A model generated the notes under the pieces. It ran no database searches, was not told where the DNA came from, and worked only from the letters and a program-made list of their open reading frames with translations. From Verrucomicrobiia bacterium (GTDB lineage: Bacteria > Verrucomicrobiota > Verrucomicrobiia > Verrucomicrobiales > Akkermansiaceae): a stretch of DNA of 64,000 bases. Position numbers and translations under genes: made by a program. This document shows, one piece after another, positions 518 to 33,885 of the stretch (the stretch's first letter is position 1; every line of letters begins with the position of its first letter). The stretch spans positions 1 through 64,000 of the forward strand of contig JAUIJD010000019.1 in NCBI GenBank assembly GCA_030431475.1, written 5' to 3'.

Positions 518-919
518 ATGAGCGCAGCAGCCACCCAGACCCTCGCCGCCACCGGCCGTCGCAAGACGGCGGTGGCCCACGTCCGACTCAACGAAGGTTC
601 GGGCAAGATCACCATCAACGGCCGAGGATTCGAGGACTACCTCCCGACCCTGCCGCTGCAGAGCACGGTCCTCGCCCCGTTCCAGACCGCGAACCTGCTG
701 AACCGCTTCGACATGGACGTCACGGTCAAGGGCAGCGGACTTCACGCCCAGGCCGGTGCGATTCGTCACGCGGTGTCCCGTGCCCTCACGGCCTTCGACC
801 CGGAACTGCGCCAGGAGCTCAAGCCCCACGGGTTCCTTCGCCGCGACCCGCGCATGAAGGAGCGGAAGAAGGCCGGCCAGCCGGGTGCCCGCAAGCGCTA
901 CCAGTTCTCCAAGCGCTGA
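518..919 (+). CDS. rpsI: 30S ribosomal protein S9
   Basis: Small-subunit ribosomal protein whose C-terminal tail reaches the P-site tRNA. The 133-residue product shows the family features: ATGRRKTAVA near the start, a central LLNRFDMDVTVKGSGLHAQAGAIRHAVSRAL, and the invariant basic C-terminus ending KRYQFSKR. It lies 32 bases behind rplM in the classic two-gene operon and is followed by a strong intrinsic terminator. The N-terminus is a few residues longer than in E. coli (MSAAATQTLAA), which is ordinary variation. Confidence 0.98.
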   Translation: MSAAATQTLAATGRRKTAVAHVRLNEGSGKITINGRGFEDYLPTLPLQSTVLAPFQTANLLNRFDMDVTVKGSGLHAQAGAIRHAVSRALTAFDPELRQELKPHGFLRRDPRMKERKKAGQPGARKRYQFSKR

Positions 920-20280: not shown

Positions 20281-21447
20281 TCAGCAATCGAGAGGGGTCC
20301 AGGCCGCGTTGGCTTTCGATGAGGCGACCACCGCCTCGATGAAGGCCATCCCGCGGATGCCGTCGTCGATCTTCGGGTAGTCCGTCGACTGGGTGTCAGG
20401 CTCGGTGCCGTCGATCACGGCGCGGATGTGATTGGCGAAATTGAGGTAGATGTTGGCGAAGGCCTCGAGATAACCCTCGGGGTGCGAGGGCGGCGTGCGC
20501 GAAGCGGACGCGGCGCTTTCACACAGGTAGCCGTTGCCGGTGCGATAGACCTGCATCGGCTCCTCAAGCCACTTCACGAGGAGCGTGTTCGGCTCGTTCT
20601 GGTGCCACTCGAGCCCCCCCTTCTCGCCATAGACGCGGAGGTTGAGGTTGTTCTCCTCGCCGACGCTGATCTGCGACGCGTGCAGCACCCCCTTCGCTCC
20701 TCCTTCGAAGCGAAGCAGCAAGTTGCCGTCGTCATCCAGCGCCCGGCCGGGAACGAAGGCCGTGATGTCCGCCGCGAGTTCGGAAATCTTCAGCCCGGTG
20801 ACGTACTCGGCCAGGTTCTCGGCGTGCGTTCCGATGTCGCCGATGCAGCCGGCCGCGCCGGACTTGGTCGGATCGGTCCGCCAGGCAGCCTGCTTGAGAT
20901 CGGTGTCCTCGAGCTTCGTCGCCAGCCAGCCCTGCGGATACTCCACCACCACCTTGCGGATCGTCCCGAGCTTGCCGGATGCGACCATTTCACGGGCCTG
21001 CTTCACCATCGGATAGCCGGTGTAGTTGTGGGTCAGGCCATAGAGCCGGCCGCTCTTCCCGATCACCTCCTTCAGTGCCTTCGCCTCGGCGAGGTCGAAG
21101 GTCGCGGGCTTGTCCGAAAGGACGTGGAAACCCGCCTCCAAAGCCGCCTTGGCGGCCGGAAAGTGGACGTGGTTGGGCGTCACGATGGCGACGAAATCCA
21201 TGCGCTCGCCCTCCGGCAGCGCGGCTTCCTTCTCCATCATTTCCTCGTAGCTCCCGTAGCAACGTTCCGGCGGCAGATGGAGGTCGGCGCCCGAGGCCTT
21301 GGCACGTTCGGGGTCGGAGGAAAACGCGCCGCAGACCAGTTCACACTGGCCGTCGATGGCGGCGGCGATGCGGTGGACGGCTCCGATGAAGGCCCCGCGG
21401 CCTCCACCCACCATCCCGTAGCGGATCTTTCGATTGGATGCGGACAT
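20281..21447 (-). CDS. Gfo/Idh/MocA family oxidoreductase
   Basis: NAD(P)-dependent sugar oxidoreductase of 388 residues. It has the N-terminal Rossmann signature [42 protein letters not shown] (the family E/D-K-P lysine motif, here DKP) and a C-terminal alpha/beta dimerisation domain. No signal peptide is visible, so it is cytoplasmic. It lies between a TIM-barrel isomerase (6 bases upstream) and ThuA (4 bases downstream). Such modules oxidise or reduce sugar C3/C2 positions, but the substrate cannot be told. Confidence 0.93.
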
Positions 21448-33286: not shown

Positions 33287-33376
33287 GGACCGGTGGCTGA
33301 GTGGTCGAAAGCGCTCCCCTGCTAAGGGAGTATACCGGAAACGGTATCGAGGGTTCGAATCCCTCCCGGTCCGCCA
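33287..33376 (+). tRNA. tRNA-Ser(GCT)
   Basis: A 90-base class II tRNA with CCA encoded. Acceptor stem GGACCGG pairs with CCGGTCC and the discriminator is G. The D-arm is GTGGCTGAGTGGTCGAAAGC, the anticodon stem CTCCC/GGGAG encloses the loop CTGCTAA (anticodon GCT, reading AGC/AGU), there is a long variable arm TATACCGGAAACGGTATC, and the T-arm is GAGGGTTCGAATCCCTC. Its 3' CCA begins a 13-bp hairpin. The last 19 bases recur exactly at 33547-33565. Confidence 0.97.
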
Positions 33377-33415
33377 CGACCCGACCTCAGCTTGCTGGGG
33401 TCGGGTCGTGGCGTT
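33374..33415 (+). terminator. Terminator hairpin beginning at the tRNA-Ser CCA
   Basis: A perfect 13-bp stem (CCACGACCCGACC at 33374-33386 with GGTCGGGTCGTGG at 33399-33411) with a 12-base loop, followed by CGTTTT. The left arm uses the encoded CCA end of the tRNA, so the hairpin and the mature tRNA 3' end are mutually exclusive in the precursor. Confidence 0.7.
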
Positions 33416-33440
33416 TTCGGGGTGGGCGGAGATCGCTGGC

Positions 33441-33885
33441 GAGCGAAGCGAGGCCGGGTTTGAATTCAGGAAGCCGACCCTGTCGGCGGCATCCGCCCGG
33501 TGCCCGGCGGGCACCCAAACTGGAATGGCCAGAGCGGAGCGGCGGCAATCCCTCCCGGTCCGCCAGACCCCTGTCCAACTCGTTGGACAGGGGTCTGGCG
33601 GTTCTGGGCGGGAGGCAGTCCCTACCGAAGCAACGCGAAGGAGGGTTTGAAAACAGGAAGCCGATCCTATCGGCGGCATCCTCCTGCGATCCCGCATCCG
33701 CGGGAGAGCCAAACTGGTTTGGCGTGAGGAGCGCAGCGACGAGGGCAATTCAGGAAGCCGATTCTATCGGCGGCATCCTCCCGGTGCCCGGCGGGGCACC
33801 CAAACTGGAATGGCTTGTCCGCCGTAGCTCGAAGGGCGAAGGAGGAAGCGGCGGCAATCCCTTCCGCTCCTCACCCGCCATCACC
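33441..33885. repeat. Structured repeat array downstream of tRNA-Ser with tRNA 3'-end copies
   Basis: Three related units. Core copies lie at about 33460-33529, 33647-33723 and 33746-33814, sharing CAGGAAGCCGA..(C/T)CT(G/A)TCGGCGGCATCC, then a small hairpin (GGTGCCC/GGGCACC, or CCCGC/GCGGG in copy 2), then CAAACTGGAATGGC. Copy 1 leads into AGCGGCGGC followed by an exact 19-base copy of the tRNA-Ser 3' end (33547-33565), which opens a 20-bp perfect palindrome (33560-33601). Copy 3 ends in AGCGGCGGC and a degraded tRNA end (from 33856). No credible gene lies here. The array explains the otherwise empty 33377-33870. Confidence 0.85.

Follow-up and report, generated by a model that had tools for sequence, protein, structure and literature searches.

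Why should a tRNA gene be followed by repeats that end in copies of its own 3' end? The question is raised by a tRNA-Ser(GCU) gene of a Verrucomicrobiia bacterium, located in the window analyzed here (64,000 nucleotides; GenBank assembly GCA_030431475.1, contig JAUIJD010000019.1). The arrangement recalls the 19-bp tRNA-end repeats of the Escherichia coli tyrT locus, for which we know of no explanation since the 1970s. An initial annotation of the locus had compared the two and had proposed, among other readings, a tRNA-3'-end-spreading element or a structured RNA. From our analysis of the sequence, the array probably consists of two tandem units of a divergent, RtT-like mobile tRNA-tail element. 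This reading builds on the observed anatomy of the units, their tRNA-specific copies and covariation, a link to RtT RNA found by models in both directions, tandem growth and the spread over many tRNAs, as well as on an inner module that lies inside an intron whose relatives are without it. A tyrT-like plan is thus found behind many tRNAs in a distant phylum, and the copy, often together with its pairing partner, follows the host tRNA.

The array behind tRNA-Ser(GCU)

The host gene, with its CCA encoded, occupies positions 33287-33376 (ARAGORN; Rfam RF00005, 62.7 bits) and, like all features of the array, lies on the plus strand. As had been noticed at the outset, its last 19 nt (AATCCCTCCCGGTCCGCCA, 33358-33376) recur exactly at 33547-33565, and a degraded copy follows from 33856. 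The exact match stands, but the copy proper comprises only 17 nt, from T60 to CCA (33549-33565), and the leading AA belongs to the CAA end of the element, because the copy matches only from T60 onward where the host T-loop ends in GAGT (Lys, Asp, Leu). The three repeated cores that had been announced were found at 33442, 33629 and 33726. The second of the two long hairpins is the perfect 20-bp structure that had been described (33560-33601), whereas the first is longer than the claimed 13 bp: its arms (33372-33391 and 33394-33413) are 20 nt each and 95% complementary. This first, terminator-like hairpin (33372-33413) directly follows the tRNA, takes in the CCA and is followed by TTTT; it is absent from the list of a simple terminator scan, which requires five T.

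Downstream of this hairpin, unit 1 has a degenerate 5' strand of a helix, P1, which is an inverted copy of the tRNA end (33419-33427, according to the alignment with model R2, see below). It continues with a T-arm-like motif, GGGTTTGAA (33456-33464), seen as GGGTTYGAA in 25 of 25 rows of alignment A2, which were chosen by this very motif. The inner module X (33465-33548), which contains covarying stems and terminates in CAA, then leads into the exact tRNA copy. The unit is matched by model R1 at 33456-33552, being one of its training units, and by model R2 at 33419-33558, to whose training set it does not belong. Unit 2 carries the T-arm-like motif at 33643-33651 and two tandem copies of module X, both with a CAA end, at 33652-33748 (R1 match 33643-33752, a training unit) and 33749-33857 (R1 match 33743-33861, not a training unit); it ends in the degraded tRNA copy (33858-33870). 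The motifs flanking stem P2 read GGAGATC and TTTGAA in the window. The units are spaced 187 bp apart, and the only reading frames there overlap on both strands. In an Rfam scan of the locus (27 matches at E ≤5), the tRNA alone exceeded its own cut-off and the RtT family, RF00391, was not listed. A BLAST search of the window element against plasmids gave no match, and no unit is visible within 350 nt downstream of the tRNA-Leu gene in the window.

Units that follow their host tRNA

Own-end copies are found behind several tRNAs of this genome. Rfam gave 41 tRNA matches, of which 39 were testable in the loci taken; the last 28 nt of each tRNA were compared with its surroundings, for which a full 1 kb was available downstream of 35 of the 39 and upstream of 32. 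Within 1 kb downstream, a stretch of 15-22 nt from the own 3' end recurs for seven tRNAs (Met, Ser-GCU, Ser-GGA, Asp, Pro-CGG, Arg-TCT and Lys), and for 10 of the 39 the own-end stretch reaches 12 nt. In the upstream control (up to 1 kb), the longest such stretch measures 9 nt and none of the 39 exceeds it, compared with 19 nt downstream in the window. The tRNA-Met case is a member of another array, which bears GIY-YIG genes. The tRNA-Ser(GGA), tRNA-Pro(CGG) and tRNA-Pro(GGG) genes of the genome adjoin the core as well, and each of these units ends in its own tRNA 3' end, with one mismatch for Pro(GGG). Inverted copies were scored within 450 nt downstream of the same 39 tRNAs; since the top scores were 12 (Asp) and 13 (Lys) and the upstream control reached a maximum of 12, this test alone decides nothing.

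Homologous units are widespread in the genus. A pattern search of 38 relatives found the same core, together with the end of the respective tRNA, in other species of the genus. Scanning genome contigs with the core pattern gave 26 stretches, 12 of them fitting genomes of this genus, and among 387 genomes of the phylum the exact pattern was matched in three (G000, G003 and G229, the last outside the family). The covariance model R1, trained on 25 units that had been selected for the motif GGGTTYGAA and applied at E ≤0.01, located the core at 75 places in 16 of 18 genus genomes; 25 of these places are the training units themselves, and seven of the 16 genomes contributed none. The search of relatives that had been suggested for the locus thus returned cores with tRNA ends beside them, the opposite of the outcome that would have refuted the initial reading. 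For 48 of the 74 places examined (G001:C114 was left out), a tRNA was called within 1.2 kb upstream, and for 26 no whole tRNA was called. The hosts comprise 13 isoacceptors: 12 called by script, namely Ser (GCU, GGA, CGA, TGA), Pro (GGG, CGG, TGG), Lys, Asp, Leu(AAG), Val(TAC) and Tyr, and Arg(TCT), recognized by eye at G017:C66. Ten of the 12 called hosts have exact copies, and those of Leu and Ser(TGA) carry at least one mismatch.

The typical order of a unit is best seen in the relatives. From 5' to 3', the host tRNA 3' end is followed by a terminator-like hairpin, the reverse complement of the host T/acceptor 3' strand, GAGAA, the short stem P2, TTYGAA, module X with its hairpins and CAA end, and finally the host tRNA sequence again, from T60 to the 3' end. 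Of the 39 units located at most 130 nt from a tRNA, 25, including that of the window, have a copy that is exact over the tRNA part. When compared with the pool of this genome's tRNAs, the copy matches its own tRNA strictly best in 34 of the 39 and ties in three; the two failures are a tandem unit of G006 that precedes a second module and a Ser(CGA) unit of G016 with a Ser(GCU)-like end. The copy begins directly after CAA at T60 even where the T-stem differs (Pro-TGG, Tyr). In 52 same-tRNA pairs between genomes, which are not independent and exclude pairs with unequal or long tRNA parts, mean identity falls from 0.986 in the tRNA end to 0.865 in the copy, 0.666 in the core and 0.605 in the spacer; against this overall trend, the copy is less conserved in some Ser(CGA) pairs.

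The direct copy is frequently accompanied by a matching inverted one. In many relatives, P1 is predicted to form between the direct copy and an upstream strand that is the reverse complement of the host tRNA 3' half, and the own tRNA is the strictly best match for the inverted strand in 24 of the 39 units, with one tie. The Ser units of this genome are among the failures, and in the window the strand at 33419-33427 fits its own tRNA less well than another (6 vs 10); the window copy is therefore a worn example. The tRNA-Ser(CGA) units illustrate the specificity: in four of seven, one variant (AGAGAG or AGAGTG, as read on the inverted strand) is shared by the tRNA, the copy and the inverted copy. 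The tRNA reads TCCCTCTCTC in G003 and G007 and TCCCACTCTC in G008 and G011, and copy and partner follow each; the units of G013, G014 and G016 show no such fit.

The units also share a fold. For 25 units, RNAalifold returned stem B and stem P5 unaided, with a weak consensus energy of -1.21 kcal/mol. Covariation over B, P5 and further stems was 0.258 in these units, compared with 0.073 in shuffled and at most 0.058 in slid alignments, and the count of further pair types was unremarkable, being reached by 76 of 500 shuffles. With P1 and P2 included, covariation in 27 units was 0.295, compared with 0.123 shuffled and at most 0.087 slid, and was reached by none of 500 shuffles; both structures were drawn from the very alignments that were scored. 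In P1, seven of nine pairs have changed on both sides, in a compensatory manner, among these 27 selected relatives. Of 78 units, 38 met a motif filter of the GAGAA/GAACC type, and the 27 were drawn from these; the covariation support is therefore partly selected, and that for P1 and P2 in R2 is selected. At the level of the fold, the structured RNA that had been envisaged thus finds its counterpart in a conserved, covarying structure. In the structural model, P1 is a mimic of the tRNA acceptor/T-stem helix and would close a four-way junction with P2, B and P5.

Spread, mobility and rival readings

Beyond the genus, matches are fewer. At the level of the order, R1 matched nine of 112 genomes, five of them outside the genus (G274, G284, G031, G423 and G464); three of these have Pro and Ser hosts, and the rest show weaker matches or other contexts. 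At the level of the phylum, R2 matched 11 of 387 genomes, in three genera of the same family and, with one weak match, in another family. Absence at these levels is weak evidence, since the search filters were strict.

Module X itself appears to be a movable part. It occurs in tandem at one and the same junction, and in one genome of another family it lies within a group II intron, where matches to RF02001 adjoin and enter the module. Six related intron loci (G246, G002 twice, G497, G031 and G490) all show a gap of about the module length at one hairpin; five of them align well and G490 poorly, and a further locus, in G449, matched the left part only and was not aligned. The intron that contains the module (L217, G464:C586) holds a second X-like module about 140 nt upstream in the same stretch, and opposite-strand model matches fall in its protein-coding part. 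Elsewhere, a weak X-like match (L206, G017:C77:28664-28745; E 0.0017) is located in ordinary intergenic DNA, where AAAGCTGAAAT flanks it on either side. The tRNA-3'-end-spreading element that had been proposed for the locus thus gains support from the 13 host isoacceptors, the occurrence in two phyla and the empty sites of the inner module.

Direct repeats beside tRNA genes are also left by tyrosine-recombinase islands, so the repeats might be attL and attR scars of integrative elements that have lost their cargo, the short units being mini-islands. Island crossovers often run from the T-loop to the tRNA end, which is the span of the repeats seen here, the direct repeat being the tRNA 3' end. 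When the 26 matches that lack a whole called tRNA were inspected by eye, 10 had a tRNA 3' piece of at least 15 nt upstream and five a shorter one, whereas one had a whole tRNA-Arg, five lay at contig ends and five showed nothing recognizable. We infer that such upstream pieces mark islands that entered the tRNA gene and thereby displaced the unit. In G002, the DNA between tRNA-Ser(GCU) and the displaced unit contains an integrase and a Rep gene, and in G014 a stretch of 4.6 kb separates two similar units (L207, G014:C22:429138-433888); its three large frames have no match in Pfam or NCBIfam that would name them, and the tRNA-end copy may have served an island as its attachment site there. As the origin of the units themselves, however, scars are improbable: the units measure 187 bp and hold no integrase frame, one and the same conserved fold is found with 13 tRNAs, covariation extends to the inverted copy and P5, module X also resides in an intron, and the E. 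coli counterpart is a known RNA.

No candidate for a moving enzyme emerged: 30 proteins from loci near tRNA-less units included no enzyme common to the loci, and GIY-YIG proteins, which have seven matches in the genome, four of them beside tRNAs, were rejected, none being tied to the fold of the element. Their surroundings are of separate note. A small GIY-YIG gene lies between a copy of the 5' half of tRNA-Ser(TGA), extending to the anticodon loop, and the whole tRNA (L147, G000:C106, ~21038-21400). Behind tRNA-Met(CAT), GIY-YIG frames are split by tRNA 3' pieces that begin with CTCATAA, with TCCCGCG-type hairpins inserted (L149/L050, G000:C107, ~147800-148430). Two further genes lie within inverted repeats, one directly 3' of tRNA-Ala(GGC) (L145, C2) and one between tRNA-Tyr and tRNA-Ala(CGC) (L150, C56).

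A regulatory role would place the emphasis on the RNA rather than on movement: since the inverted copy can pair with the direct copy of its unit or, alternatively, with the 3' half of the tRNA itself, the unit might switch folds or serve as a decoy during maturation of that tRNA. The tRNA-specific complementarity in P1 and the better preservation of the copy relative to the rest of the unit would suit such a role, as would the effect of RtT RNAs on the stringent response reported in an earlier study (PMC4986893). We nevertheless regard it as an unlikely account of the array, in which a terminator-like hairpin separates tRNA and unit and the inverted copy is degenerate, and the occurrence of the units is patchy between species. 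A plain neutral tandem duplication of the tRNA tail, which could explain the direct repeats of 53-136 bp that run through the terminator in 12 of the 39 units (those of the window stop at the tRNA end), is very improbable, given that one core recurs behind many tRNAs and also in other families and in enterics, that the stems covary and that empty sites are seen in the introns.

Under the preferred reading of a mobile, RtT-like element, a unit would arise at a tRNA gene by insertion at a point in the T-loop, AA|T, together with a duplication of the tRNA 3' end, and since the insertion would come with this duplication, the tRNA would stay whole. Once transcribed, the unit would presumably be cut out by the enzymes that mature tRNAs, as reported for E. 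coli RtT RNA; because P1 would imitate the acceptor/T helix, the unit RNA, if made, would gain a tRNA-like 3' end. More tentatively, and with considerable doubt, RtT-type elements could form one mobile class in at least two phyla, which inserts into RNA hairpin loops (tRNA T-loops and intron stems) and rebuilds a mimic of the host acceptor helix from inverted and direct copies of the tRNA 3' end; they would be tRNA-parasitic mobile RNAs, with the E. coli tyrT repeats as a fixed example. With the tyrT plan seen behind many tRNAs of a distant phylum, what was a curiosity of E. coli becomes a family, and comparisons and simple deletions offer a way to test its mobility, its processing and its effect on tRNA supply.

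RtT RNA and other known elements

The resemblance of plan between the window array and the tyrT locus runs deeper than had been assumed, and the accompanying statement that the sequences are unrelated finds no support: the AA|T junction is common to both, the helix and the motifs appear to recur in selected Verrucomicrobia units, and models of either side match the other. In E. coli K-12, the repeats of the tyrTV stretch contain GGGGAAGGATGAGAA, AAGGTTCGA or AAGGTTCGG, and TAA ahead of an exact 17-nt tRNA end, three times after tyrV, and the Rfam RtT model (RF00391) already pairs those tRNA-end strands. R2 was built from Verrucomicrobia units only (n = 27), without E. coli and without this genome, and with rough calibration; 12 of the other 14 contig stretches served as background in its search, although they had been fetched for holding the core pattern. 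It recovered each of the four RtT copies present at tyrTV (E 7e-7 to 2e-4), together with both window units (E 7e-8 for unit 1, 0.009 for unit 2), along with a false positive in an apparent ribosomal protein gene of the window (731-844, minus strand; 19.5 bits, E 0.004). In the opposite direction, the best two of 23 listed RF00391 matches in the 18 genus genomes are these elements (E 0.0037 and 0.0059), the remaining 21 do not overlap R1 places, and the model also gives matches at E up to 10 in three unrelated control genomes. When 12 loci that contain units were compared with the whole of Rfam, RtT was listed at E 0.11 in one and at no E ≤0.5 in the other 11. The gathering score of 45 bits is reached in none of the 18 genus genomes, the best match having 28.8 bits, and we therefore call the elements RtT-like rather than members of RF00391 as delimited.

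Enteric bacteria offer a corresponding picture. RtT occurs in 4680 of 5426 E. coli genomes, with between one and nine places per genome. All of eight enteric loci picked from RtT-like BLAST matches have own-end copies, 17-19 nt long, with Pro (4), Lys (2), Arg (1) and Tyr (1) as hosts. Their inverted copies are weaker (scores of 9-11), and none was found at the Providencia Lys locus; a Salmonella record already bears the label RtT RNA beside tRNA-Pro. In Klebsiella aerogenes (L284), four tRNA-Arg(ACG) genes lie within 1.5 kb, with own-end copies between or behind them. The earlier study describes E. coli RtT RNA as a product released when tRNAs are processed and connects it with the stringent response; for Actinobacillus, it locates two RtT RNAs upstream of tRNA genes for Asn and Lys (PMC4986893). 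RtT is also stated to contain a tandem GA motif in another report (PMC7657543), and the loops GGAGC..GCGACC of module X could form such a motif. Among the titles and abstracts searched, none dealt with a helix specific to the tRNA or with Verrucomicrobia RtT, although the original RtT paper may contain an earlier description.

RtT RNA is thus the closest known counterpart. Both elements lie directly 3' of a tRNA, with tandem copies, and their units end in an exact tRNA end beginning with AATCC; the E. coli inverted copy, GGGGAAGGAT, pairs with the tRNA end and is accompanied by GAGAA, P2 and GGTTCGA. The GAGAA and TTCGA flanks of P2 are seen in E. coli and in the A3 units, themselves motif-filtered, and the AA|T junction is common to the E. 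coli repeats and the Verrucomicrobia units. The Verrucomicrobia module X nevertheless differs in sequence and scores below the cut-off, the window has a terminator-like hairpin between tRNA and unit, and far more host tRNAs are used within a single Verrucomicrobia genus. REP/BIME-type palindromic repeats are likewise short, structured and mobile without a convincing ORF, and a 2010 report ties some enteric BIME-containing attenuators to rtT similarity (PMC2965389); the window-type element, in contrast, goes with tRNA tails, and the tRNA end that it carries is specific to the host. Integrative elements that use the tRNA 3' end as attB share the direct repeat, which extends from the T-loop as far as the end of the tRNA, whereas the element of the window, at about 190 bp, has no integrase and possesses a conserved, covarying fold.
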